From contig JAADJD010000059.1 in the NCBI GenBank assembly GCA_013150955.1, forward strand, positions 1 to 46,855: a stretch of DNA of 46,855 nucleotides, in the 5' to 3' direction. The notes under the pieces are model-generated. The model ran no database searches, was not told the DNA's origin, and worked only from the letters and a program-made list of their open reading frames with translations. Below are positions 411-46,855 of the stretch, one piece after another (positions within the stretch are counted from its first letter, which is position 1; each line of letters starts with the position of its first letter). Made by a program: the position numbers and the translations under genes. Origin of the DNA: Calditrichota bacterium. Its GTDB lineage: Bacteria > Calditrichota > Calditrichia > RBG-13-44-9 > J042.

Positions 411-597
411 TTAATCCAGATTAAGCAATAGCCTACGAATGACACGAATTAACACAAATAAAACCAATAAAATACATTGGATTGTATCTGGATGAAAATG
501 TGTTCCAGGGTTTATTCGCGATTTTGTAGATACGATTTTGTAGATATTTTTTGGTTTCATTCGTGTGATTCGTGGTTTAGTGCATAATTTGGGTTTA
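411..597. repeat. MITE-like intergenic repeat, copy 1
   Basis: Begins ATCCAGATTAAGCAATAG and ends with GCATAATTTGGGTTTA, so its ends are inverted repeats. It lies in the orientation that reads GGATGAAAATG in its middle. A short internal direct duplication (CGATTTTGTAGATA, twice) is unique to this copy. It sits downstream of no plus-strand gene and upstream of the lipoprotein start. Confidence 0.85.
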
Positions 598-9649: not shown

Positions 9650-9820
9650 AAACCAAAATCATGCATGAAACCACGAATCGGACGAATGAAACCCAAAAAT
9701 ATCAGCAAAATCGTAAATAATCCCCGGAACCCATTTTCATCCAGATATCATCAAATGGATTTCATTCTTTTTGTTCGTTCTAATTCGCGTGATTCGTAGG
9801 CAAATGCATAATCCGGGATA
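9650..9820. repeat. MITE-like intergenic repeat, copy 2
   Basis: Left end AAATCATGCATGAAACCACG and right end GCATAATCCGGGAT are diverged terminal inverted repeats. The middle reads CATTTTCATCCAGATA, the opposite orientation to copy 1. It lies just upstream of the heme-sensor kinase gene. Confidence 0.8.
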
Positions 9821-12867: not shown

Positions 12868-13216
12868 TTTAACCCAGATTACGCATTCGCCTGCGAATGA
12901 CACGAATGAACACCAGGAAAAATAATAAACCCAGATTATGCATTCGACCACGAATGACACGAATTAACTCGAATAAAATTAACAAAATACACTGGATTAT
13001 TTCTGGATGAAAATGTATTTCGAAGTTTATTCGCGATTTCATTGATATTTATCCCAGATTCTGCATTAGAACCACGAATTACACGAATTAACACAAATAA
13101 AAATAATAAAGTACATTGGATTGTATCCAGGTGAGGTTTTGTTTTTGGGTTATTTGTGATTTTGTGGATATTTTTAGTTTTATTCGTGTGATTCGCGGTT
13201 TCATACATCATTTCGG
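12868..13216. repeat. Three nested or tandem MITE-like copies (copies 3a-3c)
   Basis: Three left ends occur in a row: AACCCAGATTACGCATTC at 12871, AACCCAGATTATGCATTC at 12928 and ATCCCAGATTCTGCATTAG at 13051, all in the same orientation. Only the last has a recognisable right end, and it is weak (TCATACATCATTTCGG). The first stops after 57 bases and the second after 123, as if each had been interrupted by the next. The array begins 10 bases after the regulator stop codon. Confidence 0.8.
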
Positions 13217-17664: not shown

Positions 17665-18288
17665 ATGGCATCGGAGCATGCAACCGGTGGGAAAACGGAC
17701 GTTTCCGTGGCAATCATTGCGGGGGGATTGAGCGAACGGTTTGGGCGCCCCAAAGCGCGTGCCCGGTTGCGGGGTCGGGAGCTTATTGACTGGGCACTGG
17801 AGCTGGCACGTCAGTTGAGTTCCCGGCCATTCATTGTTCATACCGAAGTGGATGATTTCTCCGACAAGCCCGTGCACCGGGTCGCCGATGTGGTACCCCG
17901 GTGTGGCCCTATTGGTGGGGTGTATACGGCGCTGGTACATTCGGAAAGGGATTGGGTTGCGCTGGTGCCCTGTGACGTGCCTCTGTTGCCTGTTTCGGTG
18001 TACCATTGCCTTCTGGAACAGTGTCCGGGAGATCGACCGACCGTGGCACAGTCGCACAAGGGACTGGAACCGCTGGTCAGCGTCTGGCCGGTTACCCTGA
18101 GGGAAGCGTTAAAAACCTGGATCGATCAGGGGCGCTACAGCCTGTGGCGATTTCTGCAACAGGTGGATGCCGTATCCGTTGCCGTACCGGAAGTGTTCGA
18201 CAATTACAATCCTTACTGGTTCTGGAATATCAATTTCCCGGAGGAATTGCGGGAGCTGGAGACCTATTTAACCCAAATAATGCACTGA
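17665..18288 (+). CDS. mobA: Molybdenum cofactor guanylyltransferase
   Basis: MobA attaches GMP to molybdopterin, giving the guanine dinucleotide form used by DMSO-reductase-family enzymes. The N-terminal nucleotide-binding motif IIAGGLSERFGRPKA, the later CGPIGGVY and the LVPCDVPLL motif are all present. ATG 17665 is chosen for its GAGG site 5 bases upstream; ATGs at 17650 and 17593 are in frame and possible. The last residues (TYLTQIMH) and the TGA stop are encoded inside a MITE-like repeat that begins at 18268, so the native C-terminus has been replaced or extended. It is the first gene of the cofactor locus, upstream of the riboswitch-controlled moaA. Confidence 0.85.
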   Translation: MASEHATGGKTDVSVAIIAGGLSERFGRPKARARLRGRELIDWALELARQLSSRPFIVHTEVDDFSDKPVHRVADVVPRCGPIGGVYTALVHSERDWVALVPCDVPLLPVSVYHCLLEQCPGDRPTVAQSHKGLEPLVSVWPVTLREALKTWIDQGRYSLWRFLQQVDAVSVAVPEVFDNYNPYWFWNINFPEELRELETYLTQIMH

Positions 18289-18441
18289 ACCACGAATCAC
18301 GCGAATTAATTCGAATAAAATCAACAAAATAGCGAATATATCCGGGAAAACATTTTCATCCAGATAGAATCAAGTGCATTTTATTGTTTTTATTGGTGTT
18401 CATTCGTGAAATTCGCGGTTCTAATGCATAATCTGGGTTTA
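18268..18441. repeat. MITE-like intergenic repeat, copy 4, overlapping mobA
   Basis: A near-complete copy from TTTAACCCAAATAATGCACT to GCATAATCTGGGTTTA, with good terminal inverted repeats. Its first 20 bases encode the end of mobA. The outward-facing right end lies about 60 bases before the moaA promoter. Confidence 0.88.
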
Positions 18442-23468: not shown

Positions 23469-23632
23469 ATCTCAGATTATGCATTAGACCACGAATTGCA
23501 CGAATGAAGACTAATTAATAAAACGCATTGGATTATATCTGGATGAAAATTCGTTTCGAGGTTTTTTCGCGATTTTGTTGACATTTTTTGGATTCATTCG
23601 CGTGATTCGCAGTTTAGTGCATGATTTGGGAT
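23469..23632. repeat. MITE-like intergenic repeat, copy 5, between moaD and moaE
   Basis: Runs from TCTCAGATTATGCATTAG to GCATGATTTGGGATGA, in the same orientation as copy 1. It begins about 20 bases after the moaD stop and ends 26 bases before the moaE start. Confidence 0.85.
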
Positions 23633-24131: not shown

Positions 24132-24327
24132 GATTTAATCCACGAATGACGCGAATAAACCCAAATAATGCGTTAAACGCGAATCACACGAATGAATCCT
24201 GAAAATATCAACAAAATAGCGATTAAATCCCGGAATAAATTTTTAATCTGGATATAATCAAACGGATTTTATTATTTTTGTTCGCGTTAATTCGTGTCAT
24301 TCGTAGGCTAATGCATAAACGGAGTTT
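24132..24327. repeat. MITE-like repeats, copy 6 with an extra partial end
   Basis: A partial end (TTAATCCACGAATGACGCGAA) is followed at about 24158 by a fuller copy starting AACCCAAATAATGCGTTAAA and ending GTAGGCTAATGCATAAACGG. The orientation is that of copy 2. It lies between the convergent moaE and moeB genes. Confidence 0.8.
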
Positions 24328-25744: not shown

Positions 25745-25917
25745 TTATCCCAACTAAAGTATTAAACCCCGAATCATGCGAATGAATTCGAAAAAAATCA
25801 ACAAAATAGCGAATATATCCGGGAAAACATTTTCATCCACATAGAATCCAGTGTATTTTATTATTTTTATTAGTGTTCATTCGTGTCATTCGTGGTCTAA
25901 TGTATAATCTGGGTTTA
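25745..25917. repeat. MITE-like intergenic repeat, copy 7
   Basis: Runs from TTATCCCAACTAAAGTATTA to GTATAATCTGGGTTTA with good right-end and diverged left-end inverted repeats, orientation as copy 2. This uninterrupted copy shows what the locus at 36192 looked like before it was interrupted. Confidence 0.88.
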
Positions 25918-26787: not shown

Positions 26788-26835
26788 CCCGGCGAATGGT
26801 GCACGGGATTCGGGTACCCCCCATTAGGCATTTTG

Positions 26836-27431
26836 TGTAGCCCGACTCTCCAGAGCCGGTCATCCCGCTTTACGGGACGTGTGCTTGCCATCGGATTTGT
26901 TCGGTTGCGCAAATGCGCAGGCATAAAGCCTGCGGCTACTACTGCCCACTGTCTATTGCATTTTGTGTAGCCCGACTCTCCAGAGTCGGTCGTCCCGCTT
27001 TGCGGGACGTGTATTTGCCATTGGATTTGTTCATTTGCGCAAATGCGCAGGCATAAAGCCTGCGCCTACCCTTGCCTACTGTCTACTGCCATTTTTTGTA
27101 GCCCGACTCTCCAGAGTCGGTCGTCCCGCTTTGCGGGACGTGTATTTGCTACCCAATTTTGCTCAGTTGCAAAAATGCGCAGGCATAAAGCCTGCGCCTA
27201 CCATTACCCACTGCCTACTGCCACTTTTTATAGCCCGACTCTCCAGAGTCGGTCGTCCCGCAAAGCGGGACGTTTGCTTGCCATCGGATTTGTTCGGATG
27301 CGCAAATTCGCAGGCGTAAAGCCTGCGCCTACCACTGCCCACTGCCAACTGCCAACTGCTAATTGATATAAGGCCTGCGCCTACCACTGCCCACTGCCTA
27401 CTGCCAACTGCTAACTGATATAAAACCTGCG
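26836..27431. repeat. Array of four ~131-bp hairpin-rich units plus a partial fifth
   Basis: Units begin at TGTAGCCCGACTCTCCAGAG near 26836, 26966, 27097 and 27229, 130-132 bases apart. Each holds four short inverted repeats in order: CCGACTC-TCCA-GAGTCGG, CGTCCCGC-TTT-GCGGGACG, TGCGCAAATGCGCA and GCAGGC-ATAAA-GCCTGC. Units are linked by a C-rich CTACTGCC stretch. In unit 4 the loop of the second hairpin is AAA instead of TTT, as if that hairpin were inverted. A partial fifth unit runs to the end of the next gene and supplies its TAG stop. Confidence 0.9.
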
Positions 27432-30950: not shown

Positions 30951-31113
30951 AAACCCAGATTAAGCAATAGCCTACGAATGACACGAATGAACACCAATAA
31001 AATAATAAAATGCACTGGATTCTATCTGGAGGAAAATGTTTTCCGGGATTTATTCGCTATTTTGTTTCGAATTCATTTGCGTGATTCGCGGCTTAATGCC
31101 TTATTTGGGTTTA
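30951..31113. repeat. MITE-like intergenic repeat, copy 8
   Basis: Starts AAACCCAGATTAAGCAATAG and ends GCCTTATTTGGGTTTA, orientation as copy 1. The 5' part is almost identical to copies 1 and 36382, including the AAGCAATAGCCTACG variant, so these three form a subfamily. Confidence 0.88.
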
Positions 31114-33044: not shown

Positions 33045-36000
33045 ATGGTTCGCATGATGTTAGTTGTTTTTGTATGGGTAATTTTGATGCTTTTTCGGGG
33101 TGAGGCCCAGGTGATTTTTCCCCGCACCCCGGCGCCCTCACCGGATGGACAACAGATTGCGTTTTCGTTTCAGGGAGATATCTGGCTGGTACCGGCTACC
33201 GGTGGAGAAGCCCGGCGGCTGACCGGAAATCCCGCCTACGATTACTTACCCCACTGGTCACCCGATGGAAAACGTCTGGCATTTTCATCGAATCGCTATG
33301 GCAACTTTGATGTGTTTGTGCTGGATTTTGAGGAACGGCGGGTTCGCCAGCTGACCTATTTTACCAATTCGGATTACGTTTCCGGATGGACCCCGGATGG
33401 ACGATCCATCCTGTTTGCCTCGCGACGCAATTTCTATTATCACCGTTTACCGGTAACGTATCAGGTGCCCATCGAAGGTGGTACGCCGGTGGAGTTTGTT
33501 CCGGAGTATGCGTCCCAGGGACGTGTGTCTCCCGATGGTCGATATTTCGTGTTTGTTCGGGGATTAACCACCTGGTGGCGGAAGCATTATCGCGGCAGTA
33601 GTAATACGGACATCTGGCTGTACGATCGGAAAAAGAAAACTTACCATCGGTTAACCGACTTCGATGGAAATGACCTGTTCCCCATGTGGGGGCCGGATGG
33701 GCAAACGATCTATTTTGTGAGTGAATCGGATGGTACCTACAATTTGTGGAAAATGCAGCGTGATGGTTCCGGGAAAACACAGTTGACGTTTTTTAAAGGG
33801 GATGGCGTCCGATTTCCGGGGATCGCCGCCAATGGTTCGCTGATTGCCTTCGAAAAGGATTTTGACCTCTGGACGCTGGATCCGAACAGCGGGGCGGTTC
33901 AGAAACTGAATATTCAGTTACCGATTGATTTTGTCACCAATCCCGTGGCGTACCGGGATTACTCCGGCGATGCCACCGAATTTGTGCTCAGTCCCGACGG
34001 AAAACAAATTGCGTTTACCGTACGGGGAGAAGTACTGGTCATGAAAGAAAATGGCCATTTTTTGAATGCACTGACGGAAACGCCCTGGCGGGAAGGGGAT
34101 CTGGTATGGTCCCCTGGAGGCGATAGCCTGGTGTACATTTCGGATGAAGCCGGTCAGCGGGACGTGTATTTAATCACCTCCAACGATCCGCAGGAACCGC
34201 TGCTGGCCAGGGCCACGCGATTTACCCGCATCCGCCTGACGAATACTCCGGATGAAGAGTTCATGCCCCAATTTTCACCGGATGGAAAGTATCTGGCGTT
34301 TTTACGCGGCAAGGGCGATCTGATCTTGCACGACCTGAAGACCGGCCAGGAGCGGGTCCTGGTGCGCAGCTGGAACGAATTGCATTACCAGTGGTCGCCT
34401 GATGGGCGCTGGATTGCCTATTCGCGTTTTGATCGGGAATACAATCGGGATGTGTATATTATTAACGTTCAGACCGGGGAGCAGGTGAACGTATCCATGC
34501 ACCCGGATGATGATGATCATCCCCGCTGGTCACCGGACGGAACCCGCCTGGCGTTTATTTCCCGCCGAACGACGGATAACAATTACGACATCTGGTTTGT
34601 GTATTTAACCCGTGCCGGATTTGAAATGAGCGACGAGGAATGGGACGATTACTTCCAGGCCAGGAAGGAGAAGAAGGGCAAAAAGGCAGGCAAAAAGCCG
34701 GCGGTGAAGGTGCAGATCGATATGGAAGACATTCATAAGCGTATTCGACGGGTGACCCGTCTGCCGGGTGTGGAAGGCGATTTCACCTGGTCGCCGGATG
34801 GGCAATATCTGGTATTTCGCAGCAATACCGCCGGCAAGGCGGATTTGTGGAAGATAAAATGGAATGGAAAGGAGCTGAAACAGCTCACCCGTGGTGGCCA
34901 ATCGCCCTCGCAGATCATCTGGCATGCTGGCCGGAAGCAAATTTATTATCTGCGGAAGGGGGGTAAGATCAGTGTGATCAAACCCAACGGGCAGGACAAC
35001 AAGATCCGGTCGTTTCGGGCGCGCATCAGGATTGATCGGCCGGCCGAACAGCGCCAGAAATTCCTGGAAGCCTGGATGGCGTTAAACGATTATTTTTACG
35101 ATCCTAATTTCCACGGTGTGGATTGGGCCGCCATGAAGGAAAAATATGGTCCCATTGCCGAGCAGGTCTACACCACGGAAGATTTTAATGATGTGGTGCG
35201 CTTGATGCTGGGAGAACTGAACAGCAGTCATCTGGGTATTTCTGGACCGTGGGCAACTCAACAGGTGCAAAGTGGCATGCTGGGCCTGCGGTTTGATCCC
35301 GAATATCGCGGGGAGGGATTGAAAATTGCAGAAGTGTTGCCCAATGGTCCCTGCGATCGCACTGGAAACCGGGCGCAGGTGGGAGAAATTCTGGTGGCGA
35401 TTAATGGTCAGAAAATCGAACCCACCACCAACATTCATCAACTGCTCTGGAATCGGGTGAACCAATTTGTGGAATTAACGCTAAAGCAGGATCGGCCGGG
35501 AGAAGAAATCCTGCGCACCATCCGGGTAAAACCCGTTCCCTTCAACCGGTTCCTGGACCTGGAGTATGATCGCTGGGTGAACGAGAAGCGGAAGAAGGTG
35601 CATCAGTGGTCGCAGGGGCGTTTGGGGTACATTCACATTCGGGCCATGGGGGCCTCCAGCCTGGAACGCTTTGAGGCCGAGCTGTATGCGGAAGCTCACG
35701 ACAAGGAGGCGCTGGTCATCGATGTGCGCAACAACGGGGGCGGCTGGACCACAGACTTCTTGCTGGCCATGCTGATGGTCCGAAATCATGCGATTACCAT
35801 CCCGCGTGATGGGGAAAAAGGGTATCCCCAGTCCCGGCGACCGCTGTATGCCTGGACCAAACCGATCATTGTCTTGTGTAACGAATATTCCTTTTCCAAT
35901 GCGGAGATTTTCAGTCATGCCATTAAAACCCTGGGAAGGGGAAAGCTGGTGGGCAAACCAACGGGAGGTTTTGTGATTAGCACCGGAGGCATCCGGTTGA

Positions 36001-36191
36001 TTGATGGCAGCACGTTTCGGGTGCCCTACCGGGGATGGTACGTGATTGGAAATCGGGTGAACATGGAGAATAATGGGGCGGTTCCCGACATTATTGTGGA
36101 AGATTTACCTGGAGATGTGGTGGCCGGAGTGGATCGCCAGTTGAAACGAGCGGTGGAGGAGTTGTTGAAATCCCTGGATGCCGGAAAATAA
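33045..36191 (+). CDS. Exported tricorn-type protease (beta-propeller, PDZ, S41)
   Basis: The 1048-residue protein has a signal peptide (about 1-22), many WD40-like/TolB repeats with WSPDGK-type phrases (about 35-650) that form the two propellers of tricorn, a C1 domain with the NSSHLGI motif, a PDZ domain (about 755-830) and an S41 catalytic domain with NEYSFSNAEIF (candidate nucleophile Ser951 or Ser949) and VGKPTGG. Tricorn degrades peptides to small pieces in archaea; this version is directed outside the cytoplasm. GAGGAGGAGG before the ATG is a very strong binding site. The TAA stop touches a MITE-like repeat. Confidence 0.93.
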   Translation: MVRMMLVVFVWVILMLFRGEAQVIFPRTPAPSPDGQQIAFSFQGDIWLVPATGGEARRLTGNPAYDYLPHWSPDGKRLAFSSNRYGNFDVFVLDFEERRVRQLTYFTNSDYVSGWTPDGRSILFASRRNFYYHRLPVTYQVPIEGGTPVEFVPEYASQGRVSPDGRYFVFVRGLTTWWRKHYRGSSNTDIWLYDRKKKTYHRLTDFDGNDLFPMWGPDGQTIYFVSESDGTYNLWKMQRDGSGKTQLTFFKGDGVRFPGIAANGSLIAFEKDFDLWTLDPNSGAVQKLNIQLPIDFVTNPVAYRDYSGDATEFVLSPDGKQIAFTVRGEVLVMKENGHFLNALTETPWREGDLVWSPGGDSLVYISDEAGQRDVYLITSNDPQEPLLARATRFTRIRLTNTPDEEFMPQFSPDGKYLAFLRGKGDLILHDLKTGQERVLVRSWNELHYQWSPDGRWIAYSRFDREYNRDVYIINVQTGEQVNVSMHPDDDDHPRWSPDGTRLAFISRRTTDNNYDIWFVYLTRAGFEMSDEEWDDYFQARKEKKGKKAGKKPAVKVQIDMEDIHKRIRRVTRLPGVEGDFTWSPDGQYLVFRSNTAGKADLWKIKWNGKELKQLTRGGQSPSQIIWHAGRKQIYYLRKGGKISVIKPNGQDNKIRSFRARIRIDRPAEQRQKFLEAWMALNDYFYDPNFHGVDWAAMKEKYGPIAEQVYTTEDFNDVVRLMLGELNSSHLGISGPWATQQVQSGMLGLRFDPEYRGEGLKIAEVLPNGPCDRTGNRAQVGEILVAINGQKIEPTTNIHQLLWNRVNQFVELTLKQDRPGEEILRTIRVKPVPFNRFLDLEYDRWVNEKRKKVHQWSQGRLGYIHIRAMGASSLERFEAELYAEAHDKEALVIDVRNNGGGWTTDFLLAMLMVRNHAITIPRDGEKGYPQSRRPLYAWTKPIIVLCNEYSFSNAEIFSHAIKTLGRGKLVGKPTGGFVISTGGIRLIDGSTFRVPYRGWYVIGNRVNMENNGAVPDIIVEDLPGDVVAGVDRQLKRAVEELLKSLDAGK

Positions 36192-36606
36192 AATCAAATA
36201 ATGAATTAAACCGCGAATCACGCGAATAAATTCGAAAAAAATCAACAAAATAGCGAAAATATCCGGGAAAGCATTTTCACCCAGATAGAATCCAATGTAT
36301 TTTATTATCCCAGATTATGCATTCGTAACCGGTTCATTCGCGATTTAATCCAATTATAATCAACCGGTTCACGTAACATTATCCCAGATTAAGCAATAGC
36401 CTACGAATGACACGAATTAACACAAATAAAACCAATAAAATACATTGAATTGTGTCTTAATGAAAATGTGTTTCAGGGTTTATTCGCGATTTTGTATATA
36501 TTTTTTGGTTTCATTCGCGTGATTCGCGGTTTAAAACTTAATTTGGGATTATTTTTATTGGTGTTAATTCGTGTAATTCGTGGTTCTAATGCATAATCTG
36601 GGATAA
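36192..36606. repeat. Nested MITE-like elements (copy 9: outer, short and full inner)
   Basis: The outer copy runs 36192-36307, stops at TGTATTTTATTA and resumes at 36549 with TTATTTTTATTGGTG, ending GCATAATCTGGGATAAA. Between the two halves are a 74-base short element starting TCCCAGATTATGCATTCG (36308-36381) and a full copy in the opposite orientation (36382-36548, TCCCAGATTAAG to TAATTTGGGA). Compared with the intact copy at 25745, the interrupted sequence has TTA on both sides, as expected of a 3-bp target duplication. Confidence 0.88.
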
Positions 36607-36686: not shown

Positions 36687-37814
36687 TTATAAGGGCATGC
36701 CGTAAATCCGATACCGCTTGTAAATGCGTCCCCCCAGCATAACCGCCGCCCGGTTCATTAAATCGTTATCTTCCAGAATCCAGGACATCTCTGCGTGGTC
36801 GTAACCCTTGGCCAGTCCCCGTTTGATGGTTTCCATGTAAAAAACGCTGCCCAATCCGAAAGGCTGATATTTCTGTTTAATACCCAGGGTAATGACCCGA
36901 ACACCTTTGATTTTGCGTTTATTCAGCAGAAAAGTGAGCCAGCCAGTCGGGAACAATCGCCCATTTTTAATTTTTTTGAATACCTCGTTGTAATTGGGGA
37001 GGGTGAGGGCAAAACCCACGGGATTGCCTTTAAATTCGGCGATTAGAACCAGGTCGGGATCGATGATGCGCTTGAAGTCGTTGGCGATAAAATCGAATTC
37101 ATCGGGGGTCAGGGGAACAAATCCCCAGTTGCGGCTCCAGGCGTCATTGTAAATATCGCGAATGACTTCCAGCTCCTGCCGGAAATTCTTCAGGTTGACC
37201 GCGCGAATGGTAACTGGCAGTTTTTTCAGGACCGCCTCGCTCACACGTTTCAATTTATCGCTGACCACCAGATGTTCTTTGTCGATGAAATACGCCCAGA
37301 CGTCTTTGACCTTTTCGTATCCCAGGGACTGCATCAAATCGTTGTAATAAGGCGGATTATGGGTCATCATGAAAAAGGGCGGGGCGTCGTAGCCTTCGTA
37401 CAAAAAGCCAATCTCGTCGTTGGTGCTGGGGTTCATGGGACCCATGATGAAATCCCGCTGGTGCTGGCGGAGCCAGTCCTTTACCGTGTCCAGCAGGGCC
37501 TGAAAGACGTCCCGATCGTTAATCCCTTCCAGAAAACCAAAAAAGCCCACGCGGTCTTGATGAAATTCGTTATGTTGTTTGTTGTAGATGGCGGCAATGC
37601 GACCCACCAGTTCCCCATTTTTGTAGGCCAGAAAAAATTCCGCTGGATTGTGTTTGAAGAAGGGGTTTTTCTTTTTGCTCAGCAGCTTCAGGCGGTCCAT
37701 GATCAGTGGGGGAACCCAGTAAGGATCGTTTTGATAAATTTTCCAGGGCAATTTGATGAAGGCCATCAAATCGCTGCGGGAGGAGACCGGGCGAATCTCG
37801 ATGTGCTTACTCAT
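36687..37814 (-). CDS. GNAT-like acyltransferase, YghO/bacterial ceramide synthase type
   Basis: The 375-residue protein matches the YghO-like group: a start with LPWKIYQNDPYWVPPL, then FLAYKNGELVGRIAAIYN, a GFFGFLEG motif, the FIMGPMNPSTNDEIG phrase and PPFFMMTHNPPYY, with a C-terminal GNAT fold. This group includes bacterial ceramide synthase, which N-acylates the sphingoid base in Caulobacter. It lies 111 bases downstream of the serine palmitoyltransferase gene on the same strand, which supports the sphingolipid role. GGAGG 6 bases before the ATG fixes the start. The acyl donor cannot be read. Confidence 0.78.
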   Translation of the reverse strand: MSKHIEIRPVSSRSDLMAFIKLPWKIYQNDPYWVPPLIMDRLKLLSKKKNPFFKHNPAEFFLAYKNGELVGRIAAIYNKQHNEFHQDRVGFFGFLEGINDRDVFQALLDTVKDWLRQHQRDFIMGPMNPSTNDEIGFLYEGYDAPPFFMMTHNPPYYNDLMQSLGYEKVKDVWAYFIDKEHLVVSDKLKRVSEAVLKKLPVTIRAVNLKNFRQELEVIRDIYNDAWSRNWGFVPLTPDEFDFIANDFKRIIDPDLVLIAEFKGNPVGFALTLPNYNEVFKKIKNGRLFPTGWLTFLLNKRKIKGVRVITLGIKQKYQPFGLGSVFYMETIKRGLAKGYDHAEMSWILEDNDLMNRAAVMLGGRIYKRYRIYGMPL

Positions 37815-43375: not shown

Positions 43376-43545
43376 ATCCGAATGATACTTTAAACCGCGA
43401 ATCACGCGAATGAAACCAAAACATTTCCACAAAATCGCGAATAAACCCTGGAGTACATTTTTATCCCGATATAATCCATTGGATCTTGTTATTTTTGTTC
43501 GTGTTCATTCGTGTGATTCGTAGGCTCATGCATAATCTGGATTTA
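43373..43545. repeat. MITE-like intergenic repeat, copy 10
   Basis: Begins at the TAA stop of the DUF4185 gene (TAAATCCGAATGATAC, a diverged left end) and ends GCATAATCTGGATTTA, orientation as copy 2. It is a third case in which an element starts at or beside a gene's TAA. Confidence 0.85.
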
Positions 43546-46761: not shown

Positions 46762-46855
46762 AATCCCAAATAATGCACTAAAACCACGAATCACGCGAAT
46801 GAATCCAATAAATATCAACAAAATAGCGATTAAATCCCGGAACACAGTTTTTATC
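46762..46855. repeat. MITE-like intergenic repeat, copy 11, cut by window end
   Basis: Left half of a copy beginning TAATCCCAAATAATGCACTA, orientation as copy 2; the right half lies beyond the window. Confidence 0.85.

Follow-up and report, generated by a model that had tools for sequence, protein, structure and literature searches.

The locus lies between the stop codon of an ORF of 1048 amino acids on the plus strand (33045-36191) and an ORF that runs towards it on the minus strand (36687-37814) of the window, i.e., the whole stretch of 46,855 nucleotides that was analysed. Reading of the sequence shows a copy of a short repeat, family A, in minus orientation (A1; 36193-36602), which is broken at 36308/36553 by an inserted block composed of a short piece followed by a full family-A copy in plus orientation (A2; Table 1). 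The joined flanks of A1 (GTATTTTATTAT followed by TTTTATTGGTG) match the intact copy at 25749-25913 save for single substitutions, so that the claim of the earlier note that removal of the block restores the intact sequence is confirmed. The insertion of A1 hit the stop codon of the gene upstream, and because 5 bp were duplicated the TAA is kept. The earlier note had also described a nested insertion with a TTA duplication, caused by a short element plus a full opposite copy. The insertion is real and its empty site can be reconstructed exactly, but the duplication is ATTAT (5 bp), of which TTA is only the core; likewise, the layout of the block is as described, but the short element is incomplete and corresponds to the leftmost 69 bp of another family, B, of ~178 bp.

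Table 1. Family-A and family-B elements and target duplications in the window.
Feature	Position	Strand	Remarks
Family-A MITE, full length	415-593	+	TTTAA duplication
Family-A MITE, full length	9653-9817	-	TTTAT duplication
Three-copy family-A array	12873-13216	+	left parts 12873-12928 and 12930-13050; full copy 13053-13216
Family-A MITE	18272-18437	-	TTAAA duplication
Family-A MITE	23471-23630	+	ATGAT duplication
Family-A MITE, diverged	24160-24324	-	
Family-A MITE, intact	25749-25913	-	ATAAA duplication; uninterrupted reference of the earlier note
Family-A MITE	30954-31109	+	
ATAAA	36188-36192		left 5-bp target duplication of A1; overlaps TAA stop of upstream ORF (36189-36191)
Host copy A1, first part	36193-36308	-	ends in ATTAT (36304-36308), the left target duplication of the block
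Family-B MITE, left 69 bp (the short element)	36309-36377	+	starts CCCAGATTATGCATTCG; without right part
ATTAT	36378-36382		lies within family B; also the left target duplication of A2
A2, full-length family-A MITE, 165 bp	36383-36547	+	CCCAGATTAAGCA...AATTTGGG
ATTAT	36548-36552		right target duplication, for the block as well as for A2
Host copy A1, second part	36553-36602	-	ends AATCTGGG
ATAAA	36603-36607		right 5-bp target duplication of A1
Family-A MITE	43377-43541	-	
Family-A MITE, partial, at window end	46765-46850	-	

The array at 12873-13216 has the same layout of a left part plus a full copy as the nested locus. The window also contains, at 26828-27420, an intergenic array of about five tandem repeats of ~130 bp (TAGCCCGACTCTCCAGAG...TAAAGCCTGCGCCTAC), which is unrelated to the MITE.

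Family A (165 bp) and family B are both much too short for a transposase gene and carry no gene. Their ends, common to both families, read CCCAGATTANGCAWTAG, and the terminal inverted repeats (CCCAGATTA.../...TAATTTGGG) allow the element to fold into a long imperfect hairpin. The short length without a transposase gene, the terminal inverted repeats, the duplication of fixed length, and the occurrence in many copies with empty sites together typify MITEs. Four close relatives of the 69-bp piece, and more diverged ones besides, are present in the genome. These run on past the breakpoint (CACGTAACATTATTTGTTTAAG in L066; CACGTAAAATTA or CATGTAAAATTATTTG in L063-L065) into family B, which ends in TAATTTGGG and has ~50 bp of its right end in common with family A. 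Thus, the block is composed of the left part of a family-B element with A2 at the ATTAT of B itself, the right part of B being missing. The possibility that the short element is an independent, complete element was rejected, as it is the left part of a family that is complete elsewhere in the genome. In L066 (G000:C29, ~36000-36260) families A and B form a chimera joined at the common GGTT[C/T]ATTCGCGATTT, probably by recombination between MITE families, and an extra family-A copy lies inside B with an ATAAT duplication. At the end of some elements the terminus itself is repeated in short tandem copies (GGGAATCTGGGATAAA at the IS described below; CCCAGATTAAGCAATAGCCTACGCCCAGATTAAG... at a family-A copy; L061 ~1385-1410, L004 and L003), which hints at imprecise end use.

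The length of the target duplication was determined from a profile built from 19 full-length copies and run on 443 kb (the window and 20 stretches, several of them picked around known copies), and from a second sample of a further 400 kb of the genome not chosen for known copies. Among the first 72 full-length copies, 33 have an exact 5-bp duplication beside CCC...GGG (shuffled expectation 7.9; maximum 15 in 500 shuffles), while duplications of 4, 6 or 7 bp show no excess over the shuffled expectation. For both samples combined, the exact 5-bp duplication is present in 54 of 128 full-length copies (11.7 expected; maximum 25 in 2000 shuffles), and no fits of 6 or 7 bp were found among these. 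The unselected stretches alone give 19/52, and the best-preserved third of the copies 28/42; exact duplications in under half of all copies are to be expected if many copies are old. All 54 exact duplications read [A/T]TNAN, T being fixed at the second position and A at the fourth, and include TTTAT, TTAAA, TTTAA, ATTAT, TTAAT, ATAAA, and ATGAA. In addition, the joined flanks of 15 nested sites were scored against the family profile for duplication lengths of 0-10, and 5 was the best length at nine sites, which is far beyond chance, with 1, 4, and 6 the best at one site each, and 0 at three. The locus described here is one of the latter three, with mixed B and A hosts and A1 only partly aligned, and its 5-bp assignment comes from the exact sequence and not from this scoring. 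The target duplication is 5 bp, and this corrected length points to the right transposase family.

A search of the genome with Pfam PF13701 gave a single place, C18:15-959, which encodes a transposase of the IS1380 family (NCBIfam NF033539; score of 219 bits against a cut-off of 180). Its reading is split into frames of 76 and 361 amino acids by a frameshift at a CTTTTTA run (L061, G000:C18:1-1401); whether this reflects real decay, an assembly error or recoding is indistinguishable from this sequence. The only long assembled copy is thus frameshifted, and it is also cut by the contig end. Further copies are seen as end junctions only, with no complete IS in one piece in the assembly. Because the assembled transposase is frameshifted, an intact autonomous copy is presumed rather than seen. 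The ends of the IS (CCCAGATTACGCAATAG and CCCAGATTACGCATTAG; general form CCCAGATTACGCA[A/T]TAG) recur at eight other contig ends, one end in C27, C21, and C13, and the other in C14, C12, C19, C44, and C35. A multicopy IS that breaks an assembly typically leaves such a trace, and several copies are thus indicated. The flanks at nine IS junctions are TTAAA (six), TTTAA, ATTAT, and ATAAA; the junction in C21 lies inside a family-A copy, and that in C35 abuts one. The resident IS and the MITEs therefore agree in their ends and in their A+T-rich target of 5 bp. Beyond the ends of ~17 bp the MITEs are unlike the IS, and hence they did not arise from it by simple deletion.

Relatives of the transposase (44-62% identity for those of full length) were found in other phyla, in Candidatus Magnetominusculus, Syntrophaceae, Nitrosomonas, Nitrospira, Betaproteobacteria, and others. 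The ends of their elements, located by looking for paired ends with no end sequence supplied, are of the CCCAGATT type, with 5-bp duplications of the WTNAW type (ATTAT, ATTAA, TTCAA, TTCAT, ATAAA, and TTTAA). The ends and the target are therefore alike those of this IS1380 clade. More distant IS1380 elements (31% identity) are present in one relative, G017.

Taken as a reading of the sequence, it is very probable that the repeat is a MITE family mobilised in trans by the resident IS1380-family transposase at WTNAW targets with a 5-bp duplication. The transposase would recognise the common ends, and the element would have been inserted between genes at A+T-rich sites, leaving the duplication. 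At the present locus, the insertion of A1 into ATAAA over the stop codon would have come first. Later, family-B and family-A elements would have entered ATTAT inside A1, at a recurrent hot spot, and the right part of B may have been lost by deletion between ATTATTT repeats, unless B-left and A2 moved as a unit. The ends, the length of the duplication, the nesting, the ends in common with the IS, and the absence from relatives are direct results; the mobilisation in trans and this order of events are what we infer.

Nesting is common. Of the 128 full-length family-A copies, 26 are flanked on both sides by a broken host element; in 22 it lies only to the left, and in nine only to the right. Nested empty sites restore full-length elements. 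As family A makes up ~19% of the non-coding DNA, nesting at such a frequency can be explained without a particular preference for self. Within family-A hosts, 28 of 50 breakpoints, including that of the present locus, fall at model positions 44-56, which are A+T-rich; this hot spot suggests target choice.

A variant of the proposed explanation, which concerns one step only, is that the block (B-left, ATTAT, and A2) entered A1 as one unit, the transposase having paired the left end of B with the right end of A2. We regard this as possible but doubtful. It would agree with the single pair of ATTAT that brackets the whole block, with the excess of left-only over right-only arrays, and with the use of distant alternative ends known for the IS1380 family (PMC2887853, PMC3281130). 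Against it, ATTATTT is present at the breakpoint in both B and A1, and hence deletion between short repeats explains the block as well; further, no donor copy was found. Composite movement was also tested on 19 one-sided arrays and gave no significant signal, the outer duplication being equal to the far flank in 3 as compared to 1.5 expected (p=0.18). The more general proposal, that MITEs nest at the hot spot and then move as mosaics in which the IS1380 transposase pairs the host's left end with the inserted copy's right end, seems unlikely. If true, new composite miniature elements would arise continually, as a small-scale form of ISEcp1-style capture.

Trans-mobilisation by the IS1380-family transposase has two further rivals. 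According to the first, the duplication is 3 bp (TTA) and the family is one with 3-bp TNA duplications, e.g., the IS1031 group of IS5. At the nested locus TTA and ATTAT fit equally well: an identical empty site results whether TTA is combined with T/A ends or ATTAT with CCC/GGG ends, so that the locus alone is not decisive, and the 3-base core agrees in 42 of 72 copies, as compared to 21.6 expected. The TTA duplication proposed in the earlier note is not borne out. In the 72 copies with matching 3-base cores, the base next to the core on each side matches as well, far more often than after shuffling (63 versus 42.6 expected, and 60 versus 34.6; p=0.0002 each). Since both cores and outer bases agree, the duplication is 5 bp. 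The 5-bp matches also exceed those of every one of the 2000 shuffles, and the IS with the same ends belongs to IS1380. A 3-bp duplication is thus very improbable, and membership in the IS1031 group was rejected, as 5 bp and not 3 bp were found. It is equally improbable that the repeats are REP-like structured regulatory or terminator sequences spread by recombination, with the apparent insertions being rearrangements, in spite of the strong hairpin (z -4.6) and of the finding that none of the 52 full-length copies in the unselected 400 kb (~83% coding by a crude call) lies mostly within predicted ORFs, because transposition leaves just such marks as the precise duplications of 5 bp and the exact empty sites of nested copies, the ends are common to an IS, and no Rfam family matches the repeat. 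The repeats may, however, have a secondary role as terminators. The view of the earlier note that the repeat undergoes transposition-like movement is thus strongly supported by the duplications and nested empty sites, both at the locus and genome-wide.

The abundance of the repeat is high. The unselected 400 kb contain 112 family-A matches (81 strong, 52 full length), or 3.26% of the DNA, and family A occupies 4.57% of the window. By extrapolation, the genome would carry ~1,140 (roughly 1,100) copies and fragments, about 3-5% of its DNA. The pattern WTNAWCCCAGATTANGCANTAG, which combines a duplication-like flank with the conserved end, has 491 matches in this genome with one mismatch allowed, and none in 19 relatives that include the single congener; the reversed pattern used as a control gave none. 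The results from blastn searches of 40 genomes with the family-A consensus indicate one match only outside this genome, of 49 bp, in the same congener. It corresponds to the end of an element of ~330 bp (L130, G001:C15) with the same kind of ends, an ATAAT duplication, and a different interior, and therefore such ends have been mobile in the congener too. The IS1380 transposase was not found in the 15 relatives of the same order, nor in the congener that carries L130. The search for an empty allele, suggested in the earlier note, was answered in part: the congener retains both genes that flank the nested locus (for the first, the proteins are 78% identical), and the interval that separates them holds no repeat, but divergence is too great for an exact empty site to be read from it.

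In the IS1380 family, ISEcp1 duplicates 5 bp on insertion into A+T-rich targets (PMC2887853), and IS1247 carries a direct repeat of 5 bp (PMC3281130). These elements and ISPme1 resemble the resident IS in transposase family and duplication length, and its relatives have CCCAGATT ends. In contrast, the repeats described here are without a transposase, measure 165-178 bp, and have only the terminal ~17 bp in common with the resident IS. ISEcp1 and the IS1380 transposable modules (TMos) of Paracoccus demonstrate that transposases of this family can use far alternative ends and so move neighbouring DNA (PMC2887853, PMC3281130). Such an end would explain the block of B-left and A2, but, in contrast to TMos and ISEcp1 capture units, there is no significant sign of composite movement here. 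In the literature searched, coverage of which was incomplete, no IS1380 MITE of this size was found. The analysis points to IS1380 as the likely driver of a MITE burst that is very large in this genome and absent from the sampled relatives, and the presence of a resident IS together with hundreds of copies makes trans-mobilisation, the choice of WTNAW targets, and self-nesting testable. ERIC, Correia, Chunjie, and MITEPye1 are, like the repeats here, short, palindromic, and intergenic, with terminal repeats and a target duplication but no gene. Whereas MITEPye1 is driven by the IS1182 family (PMC11578231), the likely driver here is IS1380. The burst is unusually large, although of an already known kind of element: compared with the 711 copies of ERIC in Photorhabdus, the top figure in the copy-number section of a review (PMC10969869), and with a MITE share of up to 2% of a bacterial genome (PMC3281130), the load here is larger, at ~1,100 copies and fragments and 3.3-4.6% of the DNA.
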